A stretch of DNA of 37,039 nucleotides from a virus. Shown here piece after piece: positions 3,015 through 34,961 of the stretch (position 1 is its first letter; each line of letters starts with the position of its first letter). Under the pieces are notes generated by a model. It did not search any database. It was not told the origin of the DNA and saw only the letters and a list, made by a program, of their open reading frames with translations. The DNA is taken from positions 1 through 37,039 of IMG/VR virus record IMGVR_UViG_3300042518_000260. The stretch is one strand, 5' to 3'. The position numbers and the translations under genes are program-made.

Positions 3015-5554
3015 GAGAAGAAGTCCTCTAGGCTAGATGATCGTTCAGATTTCCAATCAATCGCATCTAGAATGATCTTGAGAGGTTCTAGAAACGACTT
3101 ATCGAATTGTGTATTATAGTCGATATACTTATTTAAGTCAAACTCTTCCGGTATACCACCAGAAGGGAAACTAATGATGTTAGACTGGATATGGTTTGGC
3201 TCTTTCAGATAGATAAACTTTAGTTTCTCACCTGTCTGAATCAATGGATACTTAGTAGTAAGTTCATGATTAGATAGAAGGTGATTGTATATGATAGCAC
3301 CACGAACATGAATAGGAGTTCCGGATGCATATAGAGTCTTTTTATCTTTCCACTTAACGAGTGCATTGAGACCCCGAGGAAAAGCAATGTCCGCCAGAGG
3401 TAGACTTTTAAACTCAACACGAAAATCTTCAATGAAAGACTGGATAGCCGCTTCATCTGCGTCAAAGATAACATCAATCGCTTCCTTTAGTTTTGCTCTA
3501 CATGCTGTGGGTGTGGATGACTTGACCATTTCAAGACCCATAACCTTCTTCTTAGGTTGTGCGTATTGAACACCCTCATTGTTATGGACGTTTAGAATGT
3601 AACGCTTCTTGGCTGTCCAGATAGCCTTGTCACTCAACGCTTCACGCTTCATTACAATCTTTTGCTGAAAGACGTTAGTGTAATCACCAAGTTCTCCACA
3701 AGCCTTATCAATAACATGTTGCAGTTTACTTTCACATACTCTGTCCATGAAAGTGATGGCTTTCGTAGTATCTTTAGCATCACCAAGCAGCGTTTTATGT
3801 ACCAGTTCTCCAAGATTGAGGTAAACTGAATCAGTGTCGACCGCAATGACATAATCTTTCTCCGTCTTTAGTACCCTGGTAAGGTACGAGTTAATCTCGT
3901 TTTCAATCCAACGGATCGAAAGTTGGCCAGTCGTCGTGACGGCAATGGCATTACGAAGGTCGAAAAACCTAAAATATTTGGAACCCATAGCCCCATAGAG
4001 GGAATTGAGGGAGACCTTCTTTGATAACTGCAAGTTTTTAAACTTGGCAATTTCTTTCTTGAGTTCTGCTTTCTTCGCTTTGCTTGTTTCATTTTCGTAT
4101 TTCGTTTCTGCATCCAACATTGCCTTCTTATATACTTTACGGTCAGCAAACATCTTCTCGACCATTTCGGGCATGAAGCCTTGCTTGTCACGACGATAGA
4201 ACTGACCATTAGCGGTCAGACATACATTGTCATCCACAAGAGAACTTGTGTCAATCTTTCTGGCAAGTAAGGCATCCACACCAACATTGTTAGCAAGGAT
4301 AGAACGCATGCCGTCACTATAGGAATCAGGTTCCACAATAGTCTCTGGGCTGATGTTGCTGCCCATGATGACAGATGGGTACTCAGAATTAACGTCAAAA
4401 CTAGCAACCCAATCATGAAAGCCGATAATAGGATCCTTAACATAAGCACCAACATAGGCTGCTTCCTTTTCGTGTGTAACGTTAGGTGGGACTACAATGT
4501 TCTTAGACTTTAGATGATTGAAGCAAATGACATCCCACATGCGAACTTGGGTAAACACATCTTCAAAGTTACACTTATTGTCATATGACAAGGTAAGTGC
4601 CAACTCAATAAGTCTATGTTTTTCTTCAAGCCGTTCAACAATCTCAACGTCTTTGATGTTATAGTCGATGAACTTTTGATGGTTCTCTTTATACAGATTG
4701 TGGAGAGACCCATACTCTGCATAGGACAACTTACGATCACCTAACTCAACACTAGCAATGTTATCAAGACGATATGATTCCTGTGAACGACCATCAGGAG
4801 CATACCAGCGATAGAGTTTGATATAATCTAGAATTGCGATACCTAGAATACCATAACTACCAACTTTCTTCATACCAACGTCAGCAAGGCGTGAGGTTAC
4901 GGTGCGCCAAGGTGACAGTCTTTCTGCCACTTTGTCACCAGATACATTACGGATACGATTAACAAGATATGGAATATCGAACGCTTCAATGTTCCAGCCT
5001 GTGATTGCATCTGGATAATTACCTTGCCACCAACCAAGAAAGTTCATGATTAGATCATGCTCGTCCCCACATTTGACATAAGTAACATTCATATCGCTAG
5101 TCTGATAAGCACCACAACCGAATGTATAATAATGCCCCTTGACGCAAACTGTGATTGCAGTCAATGGTTCTTTAGCATCATCAGGTTCAGGGAAGCCGTT
5201 ATCAGAGCCAACTTCGATATCGATGTTAGCAATAGATATATCACTCATGTCCCAGTTGACTGTGCCTGGGTATTCATCAGCAATGAAACAATACTGATAA
5301 CGTTGCATACCGTAGATTTCAAAGTTATCAACTCCATCATATTGCTTCACAAAGTCACGACAATCACGGATGGTACCTGGGTTTACTTTCCCCAGGTACT
5401 CTCCATGGATCGTCTTATACTTTGTTGGGTCTTTAGAAGGCACAAAAAGGGAAGGGTGATAATCGACTTTCGACATCACCTGCTTCCCATTCTGTATTCC
5501 ACGGTACAGGATCTTACCACCCCATACCTCAACATTAGTATAAAATCTATTCAT
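3011..5554 (-). CDS. 43: DNA polymerase gp43 (family B)
   Basis: Replicative polymerase with 3'-5' proofreading. The exonuclease motifs are NIDIEVGSDNG, with the acidic pair at about D112/E114 (the same positions as in T4), YPDAITGWNIEAFDIPYL, and YNIKDVEIVERL. The polymerase motifs are SFDVNSEYPSVIMG (motif A), KKVSLNSLYGAMGSKY (motif B) and VIAVDTDSVYL (motif C, in place of the more usual YGDTDS). The product is 847 residues from the ATG at 5554; T4 gp43 is 898. A TTG one codon upstream is ignored because the ATG overlaps the preceding stop codon (TGATG). The gene is intact. Confidence 0.97.
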   Translation of the reverse strand: MNRFYTNVEVWGGKILYRGIQNGKQVMSKVDYHPSLFVPSKDPTKYKTIHGEYLGKVNPGTIRDCRDFVKQYDGVDNFEIYGMQRYQYCFIADEYPGTVNWDMSDISIANIDIEVGSDNGFPEPDDAKEPLTAITVCVKGHYYTFGCGAYQTSDMNVTYVKCGDEHDLIMNFLGWWQGNYPDAITGWNIEAFDIPYLVNRIRNVSGDKVAERLSPWRTVTSRLADVGMKKVGSYGILGIAILDYIKLYRWYAPDGRSQESYRLDNIASVELGDRKLSYAEYGSLHNLYKENHQKFIDYNIKDVEIVERLEEKHRLIELALTLSYDNKCNFEDVFTQVRMWDVICFNHLKSKNIVVPPNVTHEKEAAYVGAYVKDPIIGFHDWVASFDVNSEYPSVIMGSNISPETIVEPDSYSDGMRSILANNVGVDALLARKIDTSSLVDDNVCLTANGQFYRRDKQGFMPEMVEKMFADRKVYKKAMLDAETKYENETSKAKKAELKKEIAKFKNLQLSKKVSLNSLYGAMGSKYFRFFDLRNAIAVTTTGQLSIRWIENEINSYLTRVLKTEKDYVIAVDTDSVYLNLGELVHKTLLGDAKDTTKAITFMDRVCESKLQHVIDKACGELGDYTNVFQQKIVMKREALSDKAIWTAKKRYILNVHNNEGVQYAQPKKKVMGLEMVKSSTPTACRAKLKEAIDVIFDADEAAIQSFIEDFRVEFKSLPLADIAFPRGLNALVKWKDKKTLYASGTPIHVRGAIIYNHLLSNHELTTKYPLIQTGEKLKFIYLKEPNHIQSNIISFPSGGIPEEFDLNKYIDYNTQFDKSFLEPLKIILDAIDWKSERSSSLEDFFS

Positions 5555-5856
5555 CAAGGCTTGATAATCTTTGTGTCTGGAACTACGATACCGCCGAACT
5601 GTGAGTTATACTGGTTAACAAACAGTGTAATTGGTTCAGCAACATATACTAGCATATTTTTCGATAATGTCAAGGTCTTATCTGCAATCCATTCCGAGTA
5701 TGGTGCAAACCCAACATTAGGATTAGAAGGATCAGTCTTGTTAGGAATCACAACTACACGAAGTGGATTCTTTACCGTGACTGTTGTATCGGTTTGAGAT
5801 ACAACCTCTGCAATGATTTCCTCATTGATAAAACGTAAAATCTTAATATCTGCCAT
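5554..5856 (-). CDS. LSm-like small conserved phage protein
   Basis: A 100-residue protein starting MADIKILRFINEEIIAEVV. The ATG at 5856 overlaps the previous stop codon (TAATG), so a longer frame reading upstream is not used. The N-terminal pattern (gene product acts on 'NEEIIAEVV', then TVTVKNPLRVVVIP) resembles the strand pattern of Sm/LSm folds. The C-terminal QYNSQFGGIVVPDTKII is similar to a protein I recall from T4-like cyanophages. LSm proteins bind RNA, but RNA binding here is inference from the strand pattern. It sits directly upstream of gp43. Confidence 0.8.
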   Translation of the reverse strand: MADIKILRFINEEIIAEVVSQTDTTVTVKNPLRVVVIPNKTDPSNPNVGFAPYSEWIADKTLTLSKNMLVYVAEPITLFVNQYNSQFGGIVVPDTKIIKP

Positions 5857-7511: not shown

Positions 7512-7732
7512 AGTGTTGTTGGTGGGGATGGGGACTGTGCATTGGTAACATTGTTATCCTTTGCAGCAACACCAATACCAACGATTGAGATTAGGAAGGG
7601 CCATACTTCATCCAATGGTGGAAGAGGCATTGACTCTGGCCAAACTCCAGCGAACTTCAAACCATAAGCAACTAATGGGATTAGTGCCATGGCAGTTGTG
7701 CGCCAGTTAGCGGTTAGATTTGTGAGGTTCAT
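7508..7732 (-). CDS. Putative holin (small two-helix membrane protein)
   Basis: A 74-residue protein from the ATG at 7732, which has GGAG 6 bases upstream; an ATG four codons earlier has a poorer site. Two hydrophobic segments are visible: TTAMALIPLVAYGLKFAGVW and VWPFLISIVGIGVAA. The ending AAKDNNVTNAQ resembles the AKD.NVTG tail of many small phage holin-like proteins. Holins permeabilise the inner membrane at a timed moment, and position beside the spanins supports a lysis role. No endolysin is recognised in the window. It could also be a membrane protein of another function. Confidence 0.7.
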   Translation of the reverse strand: MNLTNLTANWRTTAMALIPLVAYGLKFAGVWPESMPLPPLDEVWPFLISIVGIGVAAKDNNVTNAQSPSPPTTL

Positions 7733-7785: not shown

Positions 7786-8028
7786 AATCTGATAAACCGC
7801 TGTGCCACAGGAAGACTTGATCACGGGAGATGTTTCCCATGAACGCAGCCAACCCTGATGCCAAGTTCCCTGAACACAATACATACCACGATGAACAGGA
7901 CCAGACCAATCACCTTGGAACGGAGGGTCCTGAACAGGATTGTAGTATGTGCCATAAGGCTCATGATTGTGTGCTAGTGCTGCCGTGCTAAAAAGCAATG
8001 CAGCAATCATAACGAAACGGCGAATCAT
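7780..8028 (-). CDS. Small secreted protein
   Basis: An 82-residue protein with a clear signal peptide (MIRRFVMIAALLFSTAALAH, likely cleavage after ALA). The mature part is rich in His, Trp, Gly and Pro and has two Cys (MYCVQGTWHQGW and SSCGTAVY) that could form a disulfide in the periplasm. Its ATG overlaps the stop of the upstream gene. No family is recognised. Exported phage proteins of this size may act in lysis, superinfection exclusion or envelope modification; none is shown here. Confidence 0.7.
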   Translation of the reverse strand: MIRRFVMIAALLFSTAALAHNHEPYGTYYNPVQDPPFQGDWSGPVHRGMYCVQGTWHQGWLRSWETSPVIKSSCGTAVYQIH

Positions 8029-12370: not shown

Positions 12371-12623
12371 CCTCAGGAACATCTGCCATAGTATTGGGTA
12401 GAGGAACAGTTCCTGTGGCACCACCATATGACATAGATACACCAGGCCTCGACGTTTGCCAACCTTTCGTATATCCACCAGATGGTGGTGACGCACCGTT
12501 GATTTGAGCCATGCTTTCTTCGTATGTACCAGGACCGAGTGAATGATTTTCGGTCGTCATTGGCACTTGAGCATTAGCCGTGTGGCACACCAGAGCAAAG
12601 ATCAAGATCAAATATTTCATCAT
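12366..12623 (-). CDS. Small secreted protein, Pro/Gly/Ser-rich
   Basis: An 85-residue protein with a signal peptide (MMKYLILIFALVCHTANAQ, likely cleavage after ANA). The mature part is rich in Gly, Pro, Ser and Thr (INGASPPSGGYTKGWQTS) and looks unfolded or surface-exposed. No strong ribosome site precedes the double ATG, and the gene follows the previous stop by three bases, suggesting coupling. No family is recognised. Confidence 0.65.
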   Translation of the reverse strand: MMKYLILIFALVCHTANAQVPMTTENHSLGPGTYEESMAQINGASPPSGGYTKGWQTSRPGVSMSYGGATGTVPLPNTMADVPEE

Positions 12624-12626
12624 ACA

Positions 12627-12869
12627 TTACTTTTTCTTTCTAAAGAGATACCATTGCAGTCTTATGTATCCAATGACACGGTTGATATAGTCTGTCAGAT
12701 ACACATCACGCTTGTTATTGAGCAACCATAATCTATCGTAGTCTGCTTGTAGAGCAGAGATTAGATAAGCAGCCTTGCGAGGAACAGACATACATTGAAC
12801 ATGATTGTTCTTTTCAATCCAGTCTGCTAACTCATGTAGTTGCTTGATTATTTCGTCGTGGTCATTCAT
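12627..12869 (-). CDS. Hypothetical helical protein
   Basis: An 80-residue protein starting MNDHDEIIKQLHELADWIEK and ending in a basic run FRKKK. The N-terminal helix resembles common small phage proteins of the 'LxxLADWIE' kind. The ATG overlaps the end of the previous gene by eight bases. No membrane segment or catalytic motif is evident. The function is unknown. Confidence 0.65.
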   Translation of the reverse strand: MNDHDEIIKQLHELADWIEKNNHVQCMSVPRKAAYLISALQADYDRLWLLNNKRDVYLTDYINRVIGYIRLQWYLFRKKK

Positions 12870-13053
12870 CTATTCTCTCGCCTATTTCATTAACGTGGAA
12901 ACCGGCACGGACTTCTAATTCATCCTGTGTTTGTTTATAGAACTTGAACACATGATTACAATACCATCTGTCCCAGTCTCCACCGTCAAACTTTTGTTCT
13001 TTCAAATAATCATCAAACAGTTTGTTATATTCTGCTTGAGTTATTGATTTCAT
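12862..13053 (-). CDS. Small hypothetical protein
   Basis: A 63-residue protein starting MKSITQAEYNKLFDDYLKEQ. It is rich in aromatic and charged residues (GGDWDRWYCNHVFKFYKQTQ). It overlaps its neighbours on both sides by 8 and 29 bases, fitting the compressed small-gene block. No domain is recognised. Confidence 0.6.
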   Translation of the reverse strand: MKSITQAEYNKLFDDYLKEQKFDGGDWDRWYCNHVFKFYKQTQDELEVRAGFHVNEIGERIDE

Positions 13054-13222
13054 CGTATTCTTCTAAGGCAGTTTGTAGTTCCTGATAGAACTTCACGAAT
13101 CCATCTTCCGCAACAATATCATTAGTGTCCATTGTAAGTTGCATAGGTATAGCAATAGTCAGAACACACTCTGGACGAAAAGTATCTTTATTCATTCTGA
13201 ATGTTTTGGATAATACTTTCAT
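13025..13222 (-). CDS. Small hypothetical protein
   Basis: A 65-residue protein starting MKVLSKTFRMNKDTFRPECV. The ATG at 13222 overlaps the stop of the dehydrogenase-tail mini-gene (ATGA). Its ribosome site GGAGG is encoded inside the last codons of that mini-gene. It has a beta-like N-terminus and a helical C-terminus; the function is unknown. Confidence 0.65.
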   Translation of the reverse strand: MKVLSKTFRMNKDTFRPECVLTIAIPMQLTMDTNDIVAEDGFVKFYQELQTALEEYDEINNSSRI

Positions 13223-13335
13223 AGTTCCGCCTCCATCATCGTCTCACTTCCAAAACGCATACGCTTCAATAGCATACTTGTTTCTGGTAGAATACGGTTC
13301 ATAAAGTATTCTGCGGTATTGTGTCTGTCCTTCAT
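13219..13335 (-). CDS. 38-residue copy of the acyl-CoA dehydrogenase C-terminus
   Basis: Translation gives MKDRHNTAEYFMNRILPETS followed by MLLKRMRFGSETMMEAEL. It matches the last 35 residues of the dehydrogenase at 13697-15358 with 25 of 35 identical, and within 54 bases of the core (starting CGCATACGCTTCAATA on the plus strand) 48 match. The frame is open with no internal stop, begins at an ATG overlapping the previous stop (TAATG) and ends overlapping the next ATG (ATGA). It is therefore integrated into a chain of coupled genes. An ATG four codons earlier is also in frame. It may be a functional peptide, perhaps binding the dehydrogenase or a host relative, or a gene remnant whose frame survives because it links its neighbours. 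Confidence 0.7.
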   Translation of the reverse strand: MKDRHNTAEYFMNRILPETSMLLKRMRFGSETMMEAEL

Positions 13336-13448
13336 TAGGGTATCCATTGTGCGATTGCGATGGCCAATACGCCGAGCCACATTGCTAATAAAGTATGATT
13401 TATTGTGTGTAATGCTTCTATCAACATGAGTGCGTCATCGTGTGTCAT
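13335..13448 (-). CDS. 37-residue single-span membrane peptide
   Basis: The product starts MTHDDALMLIEALHTINHTL and ends with a hydrophobic segment LLAMWLGVLAIAIAQWIP. The ATG at 13448 has a clear AAGGTGA site 3-6 bases upstream. Its stop overlaps the ATG of the dehydrogenase-tail mini-gene (TAATG). Single-span mini-proteins are common in phage accessory blocks; no function is assigned. Confidence 0.65.
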   Translation of the reverse strand: MTHDDALMLIEALHTINHTLLAMWLGVLAIAIAQWIP

Positions 13449-13473
13449 TATTCACCTTTTCATTTTAGTAGAT

Positions 13474-13674
13474 TCAAGCGCCTGCTACTTCTGAAATGTC
13501 ATTGATTGTTTCTTTTAGTTCTGTATTTTTTTGTTCCAGTTCTGCTATTATCTGCTCCAGCACTTCTAATGCGTCGGCGGCTTCATGGCAGTCAAAATAA
13601 TGCCGCTCATCGTCAGTTCCAAGCATACTGGCTCGTGTCTGGCGCAAACGTGAGATTAGGTCGTCAGTCATCAC
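13474..13674 (-). CDS. Small coiled-coil hypothetical protein
   Basis: A 66-residue protein starting MMTDDLISRLRQTRASMLGT, with a coiled-coil C-terminal half (LEVLEQIIAELEQKNTELKE). AAGGA lies about 7 bases before the first ATG. The opening shares the 'LxxRLR...HEAAD' pattern with the gene at 11432-11716. It lies immediately downstream of the acyl-CoA dehydrogenase gene. The function is unknown. Confidence 0.65.
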   Translation of the reverse strand: MMTDDLISRLRQTRASMLGTDDERHYFDCHEAADALEVLEQIIAELEQKNTELKETINDISEVAGA

Positions 13675-13696
13675 TTATTCCTTTTCAGATACAACA

Positions 13697-15358
13697 TCAG
13701 AACTCTATAGCCATCATTGCATTACTACCGCAGCGCATACGCTTCAATAAGAAACTTGTTTCAGGTAGAATACGATCCATAAAGTATCTTGCCGTAATAT
13801 GTCTTTGAATGTCATCTGTAGCAAGACAGATACGAACATGAGCAAGACCAAGCAATACAAGACCAAACATTTTCATATATGGATAACTTGCTGCACCAGC
13901 ATCATTTGGATTCTTCATACCATTTGCTGCTAACCATTCGGTAGCCTGTTTCAGTTCGCTTACGGCTTGTGTCATTGGCTGAACGATATGATTGATATCG
14001 TGTTCATAAGAACTTGTTAGGAACGATTCGGTATCTTTAAAGAAACGCATAACAGCACGGCCCATGTTCTTTGGCAACTTACGACCAACAAGATCAAGTG
14101 CCTGAATACCATTAGCACCTTCATAGATCATAGCGATTCTTGCGTCTCGGACAATCTGTTCCATGCCATTGTCACGGACATATCCATGACCACCCCATAC
14201 TTGCTGCATCTTGATAGCGTTCTCAACACCATAATCAGTAATAACACCTTTGAGAACAGGAGTCATAAGACCGAGACGATCTTCTGCTTCTTCGCCACCT
14301 TTATCAACTAAGGTTGCTGCTTCTAATACTAATAGACGGGCAGCCTCATTAATGCTGCGAACATCCATAAGCATACGCCTAACATCAGGATGTGTAATAA
14401 TAGGGACACTAGGACCGCTAAGATCGACGGCACTCTTACTCTGGATTCTGTCTTTTGCATATTGTAAGGCATTTTGATACGCTAACTCCGATTGTGATAG
14501 ACCGTGAATAGCACAGCCTAATCTAAGTTCATTCATCATAATAAACATTGCCTGTAGGCCCTTGCATCGTTCACCTACAAGATATCCAATAGCACCATCA
14601 AAGTTCATAACGCAAGTTGGTGAACCATGGATACCCATCTTGCTTTCAATAGAACCACAAGAGACGTTATTTCTCACTCTTGATTTTCTATGGATTTTTG
14701 GTACAGCAAACAAACTAATACCTTTGACACCTTCTGGATCACCTTCCACACGGGCTAGGACGAGGTGTAGAATGTTATCTGTTAGATCATGTTCACCACC
14801 AGAAATGAAAATCTTTTGTCCTGTGATCTTCCATTCAGCACCATGTTCAACGGCTTTGGTCTTGAGCAAACCAAGATCGGTTCCACAATGCGGTTCTGTT
14901 AGACACATTGTACCTGTATATTCACCACGCAACATTAGTTGGATGAATGTTTCTTTCAGTGCGTCAGAACCAGATACTAGTAGTGCCTGGATAGCACCAC
15001 GAGTAATGCCAGGAAACAAAGACCATGCCATATTAGAAGAAGAAACATATTCATTCGCTGCAACAGCAAGGGTGAATGGTAGACCTTGACCACCAAATCT
15101 CTCAGGTACCGAAAGACCGATCCAACCCCCTTCCGCAAACGCCTTGTAAGGCTCTTTGAACGCTTCTGGTGTTTTGACTTTACTTTCTTCTTTGACATAC
15201 TTACAACCTTCGATATCACCAATCGCATTAGTTGGTGCAATGCTTTCTTCTGATAGTTTTGCAATCTCTGTTAAGATTGGTTCTAGTAAATCGTTATCAA
15301 ACTTTAGAACATCACGAAGAAGAAACAGTGTGGAATCTACTGGTGCTTTGTATTGCAT
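13697..15358 (-). CDS. Acyl-CoA dehydrogenase, DmdC/FadE-like, full length
   Basis: A flavin enzyme family that oxidises acyl-CoA thioesters at the alpha-beta carbons and passes electrons to an electron-transfer flavoprotein. The 553-residue protein runs the complete length. An N-terminal extension (MQYKAPVDSTLFLLRDVL) is typical of the long bacterial branch that includes the methylmercaptopropionyl-CoA dehydrogenase DmdC. Then come GGWIGLSVPERFGGQGLP, the FAD/substrate block TGTMCLTEPHCGTDLG (148-163), ITGQKIFISGGEHD, SKMGIHGSPTCVM, the QVWGGHGYVRDNG loop and the catalytic base E413 in IYEGANGIQALDLVGRKL. The C-terminal helical domain of the long branch follows. AAGGA precedes the ATG. The substrate (fatty acyl-CoA or MMPA-CoA) cannot be decided from sequence. 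Every hallmark residue I can check is present, so it looks active. Confidence 0.95.
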   Translation of the reverse strand: MQYKAPVDSTLFLLRDVLKFDNDLLEPILTEIAKLSEESIAPTNAIGDIEGCKYVKEESKVKTPEAFKEPYKAFAEGGWIGLSVPERFGGQGLPFTLAVAANEYVSSSNMAWSLFPGITRGAIQALLVSGSDALKETFIQLMLRGEYTGTMCLTEPHCGTDLGLLKTKAVEHGAEWKITGQKIFISGGEHDLTDNILHLVLARVEGDPEGVKGISLFAVPKIHRKSRVRNNVSCGSIESKMGIHGSPTCVMNFDGAIGYLVGERCKGLQAMFIMMNELRLGCAIHGLSQSELAYQNALQYAKDRIQSKSAVDLSGPSVPIITHPDVRRMLMDVRSINEAARLLVLEAATLVDKGGEEAEDRLGLMTPVLKGVITDYGVENAIKMQQVWGGHGYVRDNGMEQIVRDARIAMIYEGANGIQALDLVGRKLPKNMGRAVMRFFKDTESFLTSSYEHDINHIVQPMTQAVSELKQATEWLAANGMKNPNDAGAASYPYMKMFGLVLLGLAHVRICLATDDIQRHITARYFMDRILPETSFLLKRMRCGSNAMMAIEF

Positions 15359-27260: not shown

Positions 27261-30200
27261 TTATTTTGATAGTTCTACTATATATACTGTTGTAGATCCA
27301 GTTGGTGTTGATGCGGCACCTTCAACATCAGCGTAAAACTGAACTTGTCTTGGGAATGTCAGCACAGGTGTATATATCATAAATCCGATTTCTGCCATGT
27401 TGAGATATGTTTCTGCGCCCGATACAACTGAAGTTACATTAACTCTCCAATTGTTATATGAATTTGAAGTTGCTGTTGGTAAATATCTGATTTCTTGATC
27501 ACCCCAGTTGATCAAATTGTTGATAGTGTTCAGAACAACCCAAGAAGTTCTATTATTAGATCCTTCAATAGTCAACGATTTTGGCGCTCTTGCAGCCGTA
27601 CCACCAGCAGCACTTGAGTATGCCATCAACGTAACATTACTGACTTGTTGTTGTGTTGTGAATTGATATTGAATCCAGGCCTTTGCAGTATTTGACCAAT
27701 TTGCTATCCATGTTGATGTAACACTACCATCAAAGGCCCATGCACCGACATAGTTAGTGGTATAACCACGTGTGACAGGCAACCAGGCACAACCATACGC
27801 ACAGACATATTCCCAGTTTGTTTGCTCATAATAATATGAATAATAATTTGATTGATCTACGCTACCTGCTAGAGCAATCTTACCTGTAGGATACACACCA
27901 GAGAATACAGTCATAGTCGTAACTGGAGTAGTAAGGGCTCCTGATGTCTGTAATGGTGTGATTAGTGCTTTATATCCGTCAGCATAAACAGTCAATTTAC
28001 CACCAGACAGATTCAAATCGTTTGATCCAGAATAAGAAGCAAATATACCTACACGAGAATTTGCACGAATATCAACAGATGCAATACCAGAATTTTTTGT
28101 TCCGGATGTCATAGCAGAGTGACTGGCTGCGAAATCAGCCAACTGTGCATTGTCAATAGTACCAGCAACAACAAGATTGCCGTAAATATTAACATTAGAA
28201 TTAATATCTAGAGTATAGACTTCACCCGATCCATCTGCTTTTTGTAGTCCTGTAAATACCAATCCACCACTAGTACCCCCAACACTGGCTTGAACCGCCC
28301 ACTGGGCAGATAGTCCATTAGCGGTAGAAAAGACTTGTGAGATCGAAGCCTCACCAGTAGATCCAGAACCCGGAAGTCCAGTTACATATCCATCTCTAAT
28401 AGAGAATGATACTTCCGCAATGCTTTCATTACTAGAATCAGCGGGTCCAACATATCTCTCAAGACCTGTTCCTTCACCTAGACCAGGGATACCGACAAGA
28501 ACATATGCTGATCTAAACTTCCACTGTTGAACTCTTGTATCAGATAGATTTGCTAATAGCCATGTAGTATCACCCCATGCTGCTGGTGGAAAATATGTAC
28601 CAGCAAATGTGCTTCTAGATCCACCGCAGCGATAAACAGCATTTGCAACACCATAAGTTAAATGATAATAACTAGGTTCATCGAATGTTGTTAGAACGAT
28701 GACGTTATTACTATCCAACGAGTTCAACTTACTTGCTAGTAATGGACCGTATGTAGATGCTGCTGAGAACAAATCATAGTAGTTACTAAACACAACATTA
28801 CCATTTGCTCTATTAATAACATATAGATTATAACTTGTTTGAACTGATGTAGCGGCACCAGGAGCAACAGGCGTGGATGATCCGTCAATATACAAACCAC
28901 CCTTACCATTAACTGGGTAACCACGACTAGTCCAAGCATTAAGTCCAAGACTTCTGGCAACATAGTTTCTAACATTACCGACTCTGGTTGTTAGTGTGGT
29001 AATACTTGATGCTAGTGCTGAATTACTCGTTGTATAAGCAGCAGTCAACGTTGATACATTAGCAGCCAATGATCGAGCATTAGCATTTGAATATGCACCA
29101 AGGTTATCAATTCTTGTTGCTAAGGCAGTATTACCACTTACATAAGAAGCAGCCAAGGTATTGATGTTAGCAGCCATGGTTTGGTTATTGTTATTACTAA
29201 AGACACCTAGGTTATCAATTCTTGTTGCTAAGGCAGTATTACCACTTACATAAGAAGCAGCCAAGGTATTGATGTTAGCAGCCATGGTTTGATTATTGGT
29301 ATTACTAAATGTAGATAGTGTATCAATTCTAGTTGCTAAGGCAGTATTACCACTAACATATGAAGCAGCCAAGGTGTTAATGTTGGCAGCCATAGTCTGG
29401 TTATTAGTATTACTAAATGTAGATAGTGTATCAATTCTTGTTGCTAGAGCAGTATTACCACTTACGTAAGAAGCAGCCAAGGTATTGATGTTAGCAGCCA
29501 TGGTTTGGTTATTGTTATTACTAAAGACACCTAGGTTATCAATTCTTGTTGCTAAGGCAGTATTACCACTTACATAAGAAGCAGCCAAGGTATTGATGTT
29601 AGCAGCCATGGTTTGATTATTGGTATTACTAAATGTAGATAGTGTATCAATTCTAGTTGCTAAGGCAGTATTACCACTAACATATGAAGCAGCCAAGGTG
29701 TTAATGTTGGCAGCCATGGTTTGGTTATTGCTATTGCTAAAGACACCAAGGTTGTCGATACGTGTAGCAAGAGCAGTATTACCACTAACATATGAAGCAG
29801 CCAAAGTGTTAATGTTGGCAGCCAGGGTCTGACTATTAGTATTACCATATGATGATAGTCCATCAATTCTTATTGACATAGCAGAATTGCTACTGACATA
29901 AGAAGCAGCCAAGGTGTTAATGTTGGCTGCCATGGTTTGGTTGTTAGTGTTGCTGAATACACCAAGGTTGTCAATTCTAGTTGCTAGGGCAGTATTACCG
30001 CTAACATATGATGATGCTAGAGTATTGACATTGGCAGCCAATGTTTGAGAATTAGTATTTGAATATGATCCAAGATTATCAATTCTTACCGCAAGAGCAG
30101 AGTTGCCAGTAACATAAGAAGCAGCCAAGGTGTTAATGTTGGCAGCCATTGTTTGGTTGTTAGTGTTACCAAATGCACTTAGGTTATCAATACGTGTTGC

Positions 30201-33200
30201 TAGTGCAGAGTTACCCGTAACAACTGTAGATGCAAGTGTTGAAATATTTGCACCTAGAGAGGCAGCATTAGTGTTAGCATATGACGAAAGGTTGTCAAGT
30301 CTCAAAGACAACGCACTGTTAGAAGTTACAACAGTTGTTGCAAGAGAAGATATATTAGCAGATGTTAATGCAATACCGCTAAGACCAACAGGGAATCCAT
30401 CACGAATAGAGAATGAGAATGTAGAATATGCATTAGCATCATTATTAACTGCACCAGAATATGTTTCAACACCAGAACCTTCACCAAGTCCAGGAATACC
30501 AACAAGAATATATGCTGATCGTAGTTTGAAGTCGGCACTACCAAATACGATTCTAGATGCACCACAACGATACATAGCACTATCAAGACCGTTTGTTAGT
30601 CTGTTTGTTAGAGGTTCATCATAGGTTGAAATAGCAACAAGTTTAGTGCTATCAAGACCATTTAGGTATAGTGCCATATTTGATGCATTAACACCAGATG
30701 AATAAACGTCGAACGTGCTAAATGCTACAACTGCTGCATTTGATCTTTCAATCGTCCAAACATTATAACTGCGTGAAGGAGAGTTTGCACTTACTTGGGA
30801 TCCATTAATGAACAATCCTGGTGTACCAGGTATAGTAGATTGGAATCCTTCAGATACTACAGTGAATGATCTAACATTACCGATTGAGTTATTAAAACTT
30901 GCACTCAGAGTATCAAGTTTTAAACTGAAAGCACTATTGCTGCTAGTATATGTTGCAGCCAAGGTGCTAATGTTTGCGCTTAGTGCCTGAGCATTAGTAT
31001 TACTATAAGATGATAGGTTATCAATACGGGTTGCTAGGGCCGAGTTGCCGGTAACATAAGAAGCAGCCAATGTATTGATATTGGCAGCCATTAACTGATT
31101 ATTAGTATTACCGTATGACGATAGATTGTCAATTCTGGTCGATAGGGCTGAGTTACCACTTACATATGTAGCAGCCAATGTATTGATATTGGCAGACATT
31201 AACTGATTATTAGTATTGCCATATGCAGATAAGTTATCAATACGTGTGGCAAGAGCGGTATTGCCAGATACAACTGTGGTTGCCAAGGTAGCAATGTTAG
31301 CACCTAGTGAGGCTGCATTAGTATTGCTATAAGATGACATACCGTCAATTCTAAGTGTTATAGAACTGTTAGCATTTGTAAACGCAGAAACCAGAGAAGT
31401 TACATTAGCAGACTGCTGTGCAGAGTTATTATTTGAATATGCGGATAAGTTGTCAATACGGATCGCTAATGCTGAGTTACCACTAACATATGAAGCAGCC
31501 AAGGTATTGACATTGGCAGCCATAGTCTGGTTATTGTTGTTTGAGTATGTGCTAAGATTGTCGATTCTGGTTGCTAGGGCAGTATTACCACTTACATAAG
31601 AAGCCGCCAATGTGTTAACGTTAGCAGATAAAACTTGTGCATTTGTGTTAGAATATGCAGAAAGCGAATCGATTCTATTTGATAGTGCAGTATTACTATT
31701 AGAAAATGCCTGAACCAATGTCTGAACATTAGCACTAATTAAGTTATTGTTAGCACTATTATTTGCAAATGTTGAGAACGAATCAATTCTTATTGCGATT
31801 GCAGTATTGTCACTAGTATAAGCAGATGCAAGAGAAGATATGTTTGCTGCTAATGATGCAGCATTAGTGTTTGTATATGCCCCAAGGTTATCAATTCTCA
31901 ATGAGAGTGCTGAGTTACCTGTAACATATGTGGCAGCCAAAGTGGAAATGTTAGCAGACTGTTGTGCAGCATTAGTGTTTGAATACACACTAAGACTATC
32001 AATTCTGGTAGCAAGAGCAGAGTTACCACTTACATAAGAAGCAGCCAAGGTGTTAACATTAGCAGCCAAAGTCTGTGCGTTAGTGTTAGAATATGATGAT
32101 ATACCGTCAATTCTAGTTGCTAGAGCAGTATTACCAGCAACAACTGTGGTTGCCAAGGTAGCAATGTTAGCCCCTAGTGAGGCTGCATTAGTATTGCTAT
32201 AAGATGACATACCGTCAATTCTTAAAGTGATAGCAGAGTTACTACTAACATATGAAGCAGCCAAGGTGTTAACATTAGCAGCCATGGTTTGGTTATTAGT
32301 GTTGCTAAATGTTCCTAGGTTATCAATTCTAGTTGCTAGTGCGGAGTTACCGCTGACATATGAAGATGCTAGTGTATTAACATTTGCGCTTAGTGTTTGT
32401 GCATTTGTATTAGAATATGTTCCTAGGTTATCAATTCTAGTTGCTAGAGCAGAGTTACCTGTAACATATGATGCAGCCAAGGTATTGATATTGGCAGCCA
32501 AAGATTGGTTGTTAGTATTACTGAATACACCAAGGTTATCAATTCTAGTTGCTAGAGCAGTATTACCAGATGTATAAGCAGCAGTTAATGAAGATACATT
32601 CGCAGCCAATGACTGTGAGTTAGTATTACTATAAGATGATAGTCCATCAATTCTAAGAGCCAAGGAACTATTTGCAGTAGTAAAGGTTGATGCTAATGTT
32701 GAAATATTAGCAGACTGCTGACTTGAATTGGTATTGCTGTATGATGATAGATTGTCGATTCTTACCGCAAGAGCAGAGTTGCCTGTAACATAAGAGGCAG
32801 CCAAGGTGTTAACATTAGCAGCCAAAGAAGCGGCATTGGTATTGCTGTATGCGGAAAGATTGTCTACTCTTGTTGCTATTGCTGAATTACCAGTAGTATA
32901 AGCAGCAGTTAGTGTGGATACATTAGCAGCCAAAGATTGTGCATTAGTATTACTGTAAGATGATAGACTATCGATTCTAGATGCTAGTGCTGTATTACCT
33001 GTAACAACTGTGGTTGCTAGTGTAGATACGTTAGCAGCCAAAGAAGCAGCATTAGTGTTAGCATATGAGGCAAGTCCATCAATTCTAAGTGCTATAGAAC
33101 TGTTGGAATTTGTAAATGCTGATACTAACTGGAATACATTTGCGCTCTGTGTTGCAGAATTAGTATTGCTATATGCAGATAAGTTATCAATACGGATCGC

Positions 33201-34961
33201 TAGTGCAGAATTGCCTGAGGTATATGCCTGAGACAAAGTTGCAACATTAGCAGCCAATGTCTGAGCATTAGTATTGCTGTATGCAGATAGGTTATCAATA
33301 CGAGTAGCAAGAGCGGTATTGCCAGATGTATATGCTAGTGCTAATGTTGATACGTTAGCAGCCAATGATTGATTGTTGGTGTTTGTGTATGCACCCAGGT
33401 TGTCAATTCTTAGAGACAATGCGCTGTTAGCAGTTGTTACCGTAGTTGCTAGGGTAGCAATGTTTGCACCTTGTGATGCAGCATTAGTATTAGAATAAGA
33501 TGATAATGAATCCACTCTAGCAGAAACAGCAGTATTACCTGTAACATATGTCGCAGCAAGTGTTGAGATATTGGCGGCAATAGATGAAGCATTAGCATTT
33601 GAATATGCAGATAATGTATCTATTCTTGCTGTTATCGCAATATTAGTATTTGTAAGAGACTGTGTTTCACTCAAGAAGTAGGTATAGTTGTTACCTACAG
33701 TATTACTTACACCATTTGCATAAGTGAAGATTGAGTTTGCTAATGAGAATACATTATTTGTTAGACCAAGGGCACCAGCAATCTGTGCGTTTGCTACTTG
33801 TGATGCGGCATTTGTTGTGTTATAGATTGTTGATACAGCAGCGTTTGTTCTTTCAGAGATATCAACAATCTGTGCATATGCGTTGTTATAGTTCTGCCCG
33901 AAAACGTCAATCGAATTGTTAACGATACCATAGATTGTATTGGTTGTAGCATATACAGAGTTTGCGGCAGTATATACTGTTGTAATAGCAGAATTGGTAA
34001 TACCGTAGATAGTATTGACTTGGTTATATACAATGTTAGCCTGACCATAGATTAGGCTGGTAGATGTGTTAGTGATACCATAGATTGAGTTAACTGACTG
34101 ATAGACGCTGTTAGTCTGCTGGTTGATTGTTGAAACCGCAGTATTAACATATCCATATGAACTGTTAACAATACCATAGATTGAGTTAACCTGACCTGAG
34201 ATTACCTGAGTTACATTGTTAACAGTCTGTAGTGCAGTATTTGTAATACCATAGATGGTGTTGACCTGTCCATAAACCTGACTAATGCCAGTGTTAACTG
34301 TTTGGTAAATAGTATTAGTGATACCATAGATGGTGTTGACCTGTGTATTGATTATACCTGTATAAGTGTTAAGAGTATAGTAAATGTTATTTGCTGCGCC
34401 ATAAGCAGCGGCAATACCGATGTTTGATGCTTGATACGAAACATTGTATAGAGTATATACAATGTTCATCGTATTGCTATATGCGTTTATCGAATTTGCA
34501 AGATTGTTTGCTCGTGTATTAGCAGAAAAATATGCACCGTTAACTGAATGACTTAATCCGTTAGCAAGAGATTCTAGATATGCGAATCTAGCATTAGCGT
34601 TTTGTGATAGTGCAAGAATGTCAGCAGCAGCAGAATAGGTATTACTATTAGCGTTATAGATAGCGTCTAGTAGATCCTGAAAGTTTGTATTACCTACAGA
34701 AAGTGTGCTGAAGAGGCCAGAATTAGAAACAATTGAGTTAGCAACAAGAGAATTACTAATGGTGGAGTTTGAAACAGCACCACCACCATAGAATACATAT
34801 CCCGCAGTATCAACACTGAATACTGCGTTACCGTTTAGATTGAAATTTACAATCTTAGAGTTAGCACCATGTCCTGTGGACGTGATATTCATTCCTAGAC
34901 CAACAAGGTCTGTATTTGAGTTAGCCCAGATTCTTGTTAAGTTATCTATTCTTACTGTCAT
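27261..34961 (-). CDS. Giant repeat-containing tail fibre, 2,566 residues
   Basis: A very long fibre. The N-terminus (MTVRIDNLTRIWANSNTDLV) is followed by a VNTIYGITN-type repeat (about 190-360). Then come 25 units of a 36-residue repeat, of the form ATRIDNLSAYSNTN plus NVNTLAASYVSGN (about 440-1350). Next are a GG/ILEI-like domain (about 1361-1528), 12 more units (to about 1985) and a second GG/ILEI-like domain (about 1993-2197). A phage tip-fibre-like stretch follows (FSTANGLSAQWAVQASVGG to NVNIYGNLVVAGTIDNAQL). Last is an F5/8C-like sugar-binding module (about 2404-2529: AWAFDGSVTSTWIANW, KSLTIEGSNNRTSW). The GG domain is known from T4 gp35 and from eukaryotic FAM3 proteins. The ATG overlaps the PAAR gene stop. 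It is probably trimeric and receptor-binding. Confidence 0.9.
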   Translation of the reverse strand: MTVRIDNLTRIWANSNTDLVGLGMNITSTGHGANSKIVNFNLNGNAVFSVDTAGYVFYGGGAVSNSTISNSLVANSIVSNSGLFSTLSVGNTNFQDLLDAIYNANSNTYSAAADILALSQNANARFAYLESLANGLSHSVNGAYFSANTRANNLANSINAYSNTMNIVYTLYNVSYQASNIGIAAAYGAANNIYYTLNTYTGIINTQVNTIYGITNTIYQTVNTGISQVYGQVNTIYGITNTALQTVNNVTQVISGQVNSIYGIVNSSYGYVNTAVSTINQQTNSVYQSVNSIYGITNTSTSLIYGQANIVYNQVNTIYGITNSAITTVYTAANSVYATTNTIYGIVNNSIDVFGQNYNNAYAQIVDISERTNAAVSTIYNTTNAASQVANAQIAGALGLTNNVFSLANSIFTYANGVSNTVGNNYTYFLSETQSLTNTNIAITARIDTLSAYSNANASSIAANISTLAATYVTGNTAVSARVDSLSSYSNTNAASQGANIATLATTVTTANSALSLRIDNLGAYTNTNNQSLAANVSTLALAYTSGNTALATRIDNLSAYSNTNAQTLAANVATLSQAYTSGNSALAIRIDNLSAYSNTNSATQSANVFQLVSAFTNSNSSIALRIDGLASYANTNAASLAANVSTLATTVVTGNTALASRIDSLSSYSNTNAQSLAANVSTLTAAYTTGNSAIATRVDNLSAYSNTNAASLAANVNTLAASYVTGNSALAVRIDNLSSYSNTNSSQQSANISTLASTFTTANSSLALRIDGLSSYSNTNSQSLAANVSSLTAAYTSGNTALATRIDNLGVFSNTNNQSLAANINTLAASYVTGNSALATRIDNLGTYSNTNAQTLSANVNTLASSYVSGNSALATRIDNLGTFSNTNNQTMAANVNTLAASYVSSNSAITLRIDGMSSYSNTNAASLGANIATLATTVVAGNTALATRIDGISSYSNTNAQTLAANVNTLAASYVSGNSALATRIDSLSVYSNTNAAQQSANISTLAATYVTGNSALSLRIDNLGAYTNTNAASLAANISSLASAYTSDNTAIAIRIDSFSTFANNSANNNLISANVQTLVQAFSNSNTALSNRIDSLSAYSNTNAQVLSANVNTLAASYVSGNTALATRIDNLSTYSNNNNQTMAANVNTLAASYVSGNSALAIRIDNLSAYSNNNSAQQSANVTSLVSAFTNANSSITLRIDGMSSYSNTNAASLGANIATLATTVVSGNTALATRIDNLSAYGNTNNQLMSANINTLAATYVSGNSALSTRIDNLSSYGNTNNQLMAANINTLAASYVTGNSALATRIDNLSSYSNTNAQALSANISTLAATYTSSNSAFSLKLDTLSASFNNSIGNVRSFTVVSEGFQSTIPGTPGLFINGSQVSANSPSRSYNVWTIERSNAAVVAFSTFDVYSSGVNASNMALYLNGLDSTKLVAISTYDEPLTNRLTNGLDSAMYRCGASRIVFGSADFKLRSAYILVGIPGLGEGSGVETYSGAVNNDANAYSTFSFSIRDGFPVGLSGIALTSANISSLATTVVTSNSALSLRLDNLSSYANTNAASLGANISTLASTVVTGNSALATRIDNLSAFGNTNNQTMAANINTLAASYVTGNSALAVRIDNLGSYSNTNSQTLAANVNTLASSYVSGNTALATRIDNLGVFSNTNNQTMAANINTLAASYVSSNSAMSIRIDGLSSYGNTNSQTLAANINTLAASYVSGNTALATRIDNLGVFSNSNNQTMAANINTLAASYVSGNTALATRIDTLSTFSNTNNQTMAANINTLAASYVSGNTALATRIDNLGVFSNNNNQTMAANINTLAASYVSGNTALATRIDTLSTFSNTNNQTMAANINTLAASYVSGNTALATRIDTLSTFSNTNNQTMAANINTLAASYVSGNTALATRIDNLGVFSNNNNQTMAANINTLAASYVSGNTALATRIDNLGAYSNANARSLAANVSTLTAAYTTSNSALASSITTLTTRVGNVRNYVARSLGLNAWTSRGYPVNGKGGLYIDGSSTPVAPGAATSVQTSYNLYVINRANGNVVFSNYYDLFSAASTYGPLLASKLNSLDSNNVIVLTTFDEPSYYHLTYGVANAVYRCGGSRSTFAGTYFPPAAWGDTTWLLANLSDTRVQQWKFRSAYVLVGIPGLGEGTGLERYVGPADSSNESIAEVSFSIRDGYVTGLPGSGSTGEASISQVFSTANGLSAQWAVQASVGGTSGGLVFTGLQKADGSGEVYTLDINSNVNIYGNLVVAGTIDNAQLADFAASHSAMTSGTKNSGIASVDIRANSRVGIFASYSGSNDLNLSGGKLTVYADGYKALITPLQTSGALTTPVTTMTVFSGVYPTGKIALAGSVDQSNYYSYYYEQTNWEYVCAYGCAWLPVTRGYTTNYVGAWAFDGSVTSTWIANWSNTAKAWIQYQFTTQQQVSNVTLMAYSSAAGGTAARAPKSLTIEGSNNRTSWVVLNTINNLINWGDQEIRYLPTATSNSYNNWRVNVTSVVSGAETYLNMAEIGFMIYTPVLTFPRQVQFYADVEGAASTPTGSTTVYIVELSK
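28975..30360 (-). repeat. 108-bp tandem repeat array, second block
   Basis: Twelve in-frame 36-codon units of the fibre, each carrying a TRIDNL...NINTLAASYVS pattern. Units here are more alike than in the first block; some are nearly identical. The block lies between the two GG/ILEI-like domains. Confidence 0.9.
29143..29717 (-). repeat. 251-bp perfect direct repeat offset by 324 bp
   Basis: Bases 29143-29393 are identical to 29467-29717 by direct comparison. The offset of 324 equals three 108-bp units. The frame is preserved. It indicates recent duplication or gene conversion inside the fibre. Confidence 0.9.
30890..33640 (-). repeat. 108-bp tandem repeat array, first block
   Basis: Twenty-five 36-codon units by my count, more diverged than in the second block. 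Each unit has a core RIDxLxxYxNTN followed by a helix-like stretch ending in SYVxGN. One unit (near 31760, IRIDSFSTFANNSANNN) carries a small length variation. Confidence 0.88.

Follow-up and report, generated by a model that had tools for sequence, protein, structure and literature searches.

Introduction

At FBA1 in the yeasts Torulaspora and Lachancea, the WHO elements combine a substitute gene end, an endonuclease and the displaced native end, an arrangement linked to the evolution of chimeric genes, and the FBA1 fragment has been proposed to serve as a homology arm (PMC7282813). The mobile open reading frames (ORFs) of fungal mitochondria, known from atp6 of Allomyces and from atp6, atp9, cox2 and nad3 of Glomus, are built alike in the portion of PMC3630166 used here, with a foreign C-terminus, an endonuclease ORF and a displaced native C-terminus, and there too the native piece is nearest to uninvaded relatives. 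For T4-like phages, the sections of PMC2988022 on which we draw describe HNH endonucleases (the mob genes, I-TevIII) that are placed between genes, in introns or so as to split genes, and whose homing involves co-conversion of the flanks. The locus described here lies in DNA of a virus, the IMG/VR record IMGVR_UViG_3300042518_000260, of which positions 1 to 37,039 were analysed (37,039 nucleotides, called the window). In it a gene for an acyl-CoA dehydrogenase (ACAD) is followed downstream by a mini-gene at 13219..13335 on the minus strand, whose translation echoes the ACAD C-terminus. Very probably this mini-gene is the native 3' end of ACAD, displaced when a homing cassette put another 3' end on its target gene.

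Mini-gene and empty sites

The window ACAD (13697..15358, minus strand) is complete, of DmdC/FadE type and 553 aa long, with a PF12806 C-terminal domain. The mini-gene frame runs from 13335 to 13219 on the minus strand as ATG, 37 codons and TGA, with the translation MKDRHNTAEYFMNRILPETSMLLKRMRFGSETMMEAEL, in which the part behind the new ATG (KDRHNTAEYFMNRILPETSMLLKRMRFGSETMMEAEL and the stop) would be the native ACAD 3' end. It agrees with ACAD residues 519-552 at 25 of 34 positions (73.5%, E = 1e-8), and the 38-codon open frame resembling the ACAD C-terminus, which an earlier sequence-only reading of this DNA had pointed out, is thus real. At the DNA level the mini-gene and the window's own ACAD tail, which lie 370 bp apart on the same strand, are about 80% identical over 94 bp, with 48 of 54 bases agreeing in the core in a by-eye count. 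The same reading had taken the mini-gene as copied from the neighbouring tail; the likeness holds, but a copy of that tail is not the best description, since the mini-gene DNA is 93.7% identical over 111 bp to the ACAD tail of a related phage contig (L018), as against 72.1% to the tail of the window ACAD itself.

Close ACAD relatives were gathered from IMG/VR contigs. In two of these (L018 and L020) ACAD has the mini-gene sequence as its own, true tail, and the ACAD bodies of L018 and the window are only 75-76% identical at the protein level. A whole dehydrogenase at this site in related phages, the observation named beforehand as contrary to a stand-alone gene, is therefore present: L018/L020 and, at a greater distance, L087, L094 and L006 have a complete ACAD with this same sequence joined on as its tail. 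An earlier suggestion saw in the mini-gene the last trace of another, second copy of the dehydrogenase, and this comes close: what it preserves, as a last trace, is the displaced former 3' end of the same gene and not of a duplicated one. In L006 and L097 the intact ACAD directly abuts a homologue of the gene for a 63-aa protein (MKSITQAE..; 12862..13053, minus strand, in the window), the native downstream neighbour of ACAD, and in L001 it is the mini-gene that directly abuts this gene. The mini-gene hence holds the position of the original ACAD end.

These comparisons also bear on a partial duplication, in which tandem duplication or replication slippage would have produced a downstream copy of the resident ACAD tail. 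Two copies on one strand at a spacing of a few hundred base pairs are what such an event would give, but the downstream copy is nearer to the tails of other phages than to its supposed parent, and in L001 it adjoins the native downstream gene. Of the two copies, it is the resident tail that stands apart. We consider this explanation very improbable, and tandem duplication of the resident tail was rejected as contradicted by the empty-site comparison.

A short repeat was observed in L018 itself, where ACAD is followed by a gene for 49 aa and then by a repeat of the last ~24 bp of ACAD (ACAATGATGAAGGCAGACCTATG; 7669-7700 and 7832-7855). It is a much smaller version of the mini-gene pattern, perhaps a reuse of a ribosome-site module.

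HNH cassette in related phages

In ten IMG/VR contigs from different samples (L001, L002, L003, L004, L013, L015, L017, L022, L023 and L068, the last being cut inside the HNH gene) an insertion of 1.5-1.6 kb with an HNH gene is found at the ACAD end. The layout is an ACAD with another tail (ending KARHTTATYFMENVLPEASFLLKKIRQGSQTMMALTPDEF), a convergent HNH gene, small genes and the displaced tail, which lies 1.5-1.6 kb past the ACAD stop; in L001 the HNH gene overlaps the ACAD 3' end antisense by 46 nt. The occurrence of the same structure in many samples, together with the repetition of the window arrangement in a further contig, L064 (98.6% over 439 bp), speaks against an artefact of assembly.

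The HNH protein matches PF13392 (HNH_3; E = 7e-14, 51.6 bits with a cut-off of 24.8) with the intact motif IHHIDGNHSNNHIDNL, and PHROG 12324, annotated as intron-like DNA endonuclease (E = 1.7e-31). Its closest annotated relative is I-TevIII (48% over 121 aa), and from these matches it is predicted to be an HNH homing endonuclease of the I-TevIII type. A domain search of the protein gave no match to an intein model and a C2H2 zinc-finger match that was weak and below the cut-off; the intein-like domain fused to a zinc finger that would mark the WHO family by descent was not found. A group I intron was rejected, as there was no Rfam match in L001 3900-6100 or in window 12500-14200 and ACAD ends at its own stop.

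Between pairs of HNH-bearing phages, identical runs of 1.9-2.2 kb reach from the ACAD interior through the cassette to the mini-gene interior. L001 and L003 show no mismatch over the 358 bp that precede the ACAD stop and the 1568 bp that follow it, and they are diverged on both sides of this tract, the ACAD body outside the tract being mostly 76-98% identical and lower in two indel-rich stretches. The corresponding tracts, before and after the ACAD stop, are 387 + 1511 bp for L001/L022 and 603 + 1586 bp for L001/L015. With the YFM codon of the mini-gene at +1510, the L001/L003 and L001/L015 runs terminate within the mini-gene, and the L001/L022 run is interrupted there by one mismatch, after which identity resumes to +1568. 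The mini-gene of L093 is a chimera, having a left half of the cassette type and a different ACAD tail (ending YMLLNRIKAGSDTMMVAEL). Such tracts fit the repair of a cut ACAD from a cassette donor, with the left crossover in the gene body and the right one in the old tail, and we read them as the footprint of homing with co-conversion in which the cut itself is presumed.

An HNH insertion in a metabolic gene of a T4-like phage also recalls the split but working enzymes described in the part of PMC2988022 consulted, and the fragment could accordingly be a separately translated part of a dehydrogenase in pieces, as in Aeh1 nrdA/mobE. Against this, ACAD is complete with a tail of its own in the window and in the HNH-bearing relatives that reach the gene end, as it is in all carriers whose gene end lies on the contig. 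The probability of a gene in pieces is close to nil; a split gene was ruled out because the main ACAD does not miss the displaced part.

Some variation was seen in the cassettes. In L001 the cargo consists of ORFs of about 50, 140 (MGLDMYLYGNK..) and 53 aa at 4966-5718, the 140-aa ORF showing no clear family, and the L002 cassette has other cargo within the same borders. In none of eighteen HNH relatives at a greater distance (L040-L057) could a displaced gene tail be recognised around the endonuclease.

Cassette relic in the window

The window ACAD is 95-98% identical to those of the HNH-bearing L001-L003 at 180-240 bp before the stop, and 63-66% in the final 120 bp. A tree of ACAD bodies nests the window among the HNH-bearing phages (with L001 and L002, 100/98), and in the tail tree the L018 tail, the window mini-gene and further mini-genes fall together (95/97), the HNH-linked ACAD tails forming a separate group (100/98). 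The mini-gene start of the window is that of the HNH-bearing relatives (ATG-ACTGACGAT-AAGGAC) shortened by 9 bp in frame. Immediately behind the ACAD, at 13674..13697 on the minus strand, is a relic of 24 bp (ATGTTGTATCTGAAAAGGAATAAG), the 3' end of a small cassette gene of L002 (ending MLYRKRNK), which in that contig is flanked by the HNH gene and the downstream cargo. The match extends into the following gene, with 88% identity over 43 bp (13655-13697). In L001 and L002 the ACAD stop and the end of the small cassette gene each carry the heptamer ATGTTGT, and a deletion between these repeats would remove the endonuclease and yield the window arrangement. The window descends from an allele with the HNH cassette and has since lost the endonuclease.

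The substitute 3' end of the window ACAD (13697..13810, minus strand, ending IQRHITARYFMDRILPETSFLLKRMRCGSNAMMAIEF) is of neither the native nor the HNH-linked type. It is a third type of tail, which suggests a different cassette lineage or a further swap.

Proposed origin and alternatives

We propose the following sequence of events. A donor's HNH endonuclease, encoded just downstream of ACAD, would cut the uninvaded ACAD of a co-infecting phage, the donor's own ACAD end being presumably resistant to the cut. The recipient would then be repaired from the donor and so acquire its divergent ACAD end together with the endonuclease gene and a few genes of cargo. With the right crossover inside the recipient's old tail, a remnant of 36-40 codons would stay downstream, joined to its old neighbour, and every later round of homing would need this remnant as the right homology arm. 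The first two steps are what we deduce from sequence; the architecture, the empty sites and the conversion tracts were observed directly. The lineage of the window would later have lost the endonuclease along with most of the neighbouring cassette gene, plausibly by a deletion between the ATGTTGT repeats, and would have kept the substitute ACAD end, the relic, two small ORFs and the old tail, in whose DNA the next gene has its ribosome site. In phages that still have the endonuclease, a right homology arm is the best reading of the displaced tail.

Several points weigh against this account. The window has no endonuclease gene, and its ACAD tail, being neither native nor HNH-linked, calls either for a cassette unlike any seen or for a re-swap. 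The exact arrangement of the window is shared by only one other contig (L064), and the cutting of the ACAD end by the HNH protein is deduced from sequence.

A functional microprotein has also to be considered, that is, a free C-terminal helix pair which modulates the assembly of the phage or host dehydrogenase, the peptide being under selection. Among nine alleles the first 27 codons contain 6 synonymous and 0 amino-acid-changing variable codons, with an overall ratio of nonsynonymous to synonymous change (dN/dS) of about 0.12, and the frame and its ATG are retained despite the differing genes on either side, even the 9-bp change at the start being in frame. The check proposed in the sequence-only reading thus found that synonymous changes dominate, but it does not establish selection on the peptide. 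The alleles can each derive from the old tail of a different ACAD that was invaded, in which case the synonymous variation may predate displacement, and L093 is visibly a chimera of such origin; the low ratio is indistinguishable from variation inherited from intact ACAD genes, and on this ground selection on the peptide was discarded. An open frame is in any case expected if the DNA must hold the ribosome site of the next gene. The peptide is moreover altered at both window-type loci: in the window a change found nowhere else, AAG to GAG (K to E), generates GGAGG, and in the sister contig L064 there is a change of E to G and the final codons are lost, which makes that copy a visible stage of decay. 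The phage G002 (contig of L061, 168,653 bases), which has no ACAD, has no mini-gene either. A microprotein is accordingly improbable, though less so than the duplication or the gene in pieces.

With ACAD complete in its carriers and the L064 peptide shortened, there is no support for the earlier idea that a free helix could compete in dehydrogenase assembly or target a homologue of the host, and the mini-gene of the window is a relic for which a peptide function is unsupported. The remark that it is not simply debris holds in part: the mini-gene looks like a relic that has become a leader with a ribosome site and, where the endonuclease survives, a recombination arm.

Neighbouring genes and phage context

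The minus-strand order in the window is ACAD, a 66-aa ORF, a 37-aa ORF, the mini-gene, and ORFs of 65, 63 and 80 aa. The 66-aa cargo ORF (MMTDDLISRL..; 13474..13674, minus strand) has a start resembling that of a 123-aa ORF at the equivalent place in L002. The 37-aa ORF (13335..13448, minus strand), present also in L064, ends in a TAA that overlaps the mini-gene start (TAATG), and the mini-gene is joined by ATGA to the 65-aa ORF (MKVLSKTF..; 13025..13222, minus strand), both junctions being as the sequence-only reading gave them. It was also right that the mini-gene DNA carries the ribosome site of the next gene, a Shine-Dalgarno-like GGAGG at 13230..13234 (minus strand), 7 nt ahead of the ATG of the 65-aa ORF. 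The mini-gene start itself has several options, as the frame is open from two further possible start codons as well, ATG (13347) and GTG (13380). The 80-aa ORF lies at 12627..12869 (minus strand).

The small genes around ACAD are frequently reshuffled. Downstream of the mini-gene at least five different sequences are found across phages, the 65-aa gene being replaced by other genes in other phages, and the upstream genes also vary. A relative (43%) of the 65-aa gene sits upstream of ACAD in L082/L083 (L082 4113-4274), and at the start of L091 a five-codon ORF (MKVLE and stop) ahead of the mini-gene resembles the start of the 65-aa gene. In L064 (454-597) the mini-gene without its last codons reads into a partial copy of the start of the 63-aa gene (ATGAAATCAATAACTC).

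The window phage is T4-like, its DNA polymerase being about 48% identical to those of Synechococcus myoviruses. ACAD is an unusual metabolic gene and may be a pointer to the host; its closest cellular relatives are mostly alphaproteobacterial (45-54% identity), and its best relative of solved structure is 6ijc (E = 2e-159), which we take to be DmdC. When the structure of ACAD was predicted on the basis of an alignment with 14 rows, the result was of poor quality (mean pLDDT, the predicted local distance difference test, of 49) and was not used as evidence; in it the tail was suggested to form two short helices, residues 516-529 and 532-542. At 27261-34961 (minus strand) the window encodes a 2566-aa protein of many near-identical repeats (SNTNAQSLAANVSTLAASYVSGNSALATRIDNL-like), which is probably a tail fibre. 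In the related phage G002 there are four HNH_3 matches elsewhere; three of them exceed the family cut-off, and two share about 50-55% identity with the cassette endonuclease across 85 residues.

Comparison with known systems

To look for further cases, phage genomes were scanned for genes whose C-terminal tail recurs on the same strand no more than 6 kb downstream, and the ACAD locus was the one case to stand out. Whole T4 and ICP1, parts of SPO1 and S-SRM01 and the phages behind L004 and L061 yielded no second displaced tail with a recognised endonuclease between the copies; the remaining matches, not all of which were inspected, look like repeats or tandem genes. In the open-access literature we found the yeast and fungal cases of tail-swapping homing and no phage precedent.

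Overall, it appears rather probable that tail-swapping homing elements exist in phages as a separate class, in the form of HNH cassettes with cargo and a substitute, cut-resistant end of a metabolic gene, which have invaded ACAD more than once and drive the evolution of chimeric C-termini in convergence with the yeast WHO elements. At least two substitute ACAD tails were counted, the HNH-linked one and that of the window. Such elements account for phage mini-genes that echo the C-terminus of a neighbour without invoking a function, and displaced tails would provide a simple sequence signature for them once the endonuclease is lost. The ACAD case indicates that phage homing endonucleases can swap the end of a target gene, besides being placed in introns or between genes.

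The cassette shares the HNH_3 nuclease type and the co-conversion of flanks with the T4-like endonucleases of PMC2988022, in the part used here, and differs from them in its placement; a gene end that has been substituted, with the old tail displaced, is not among the forms described there. In that source Aeh1 nrdA is the nearest in form, with an HNH gene (mobE) in a T4-like coding region and a C-terminal piece left downstream; both pieces are required there, whereas ACAD is whole in the present case and does not need the piece, which is redundant. The mitochondrial mobile ORFs, as presented in the portion of PMC3630166 cited above, differ in using LAGLIDADG or GIY-YIG endonucleases, and that portion describes no case from a phage. 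WHO elements are intein-zinc finger fusions of yeast nuclear genomes, for which cutting has been demonstrated (PMC7282813), whereas the phage protein is an endonuclease predicted from its HNH_3 domain, and its gene is convergent with and overlaps its target and is accompanied by small cargo genes; the displaced fragment is about 120 bp in the phage, compared with 400 bp in WHO (PMC7282813). The architecture itself is known from yeasts and fungal mitochondria and is combined here with an endonuclease of another family, the HNH type of T4-like phages, and the logic shared with the WHO elements and the mitochondrial mobile ORFs points to convergent evolution.
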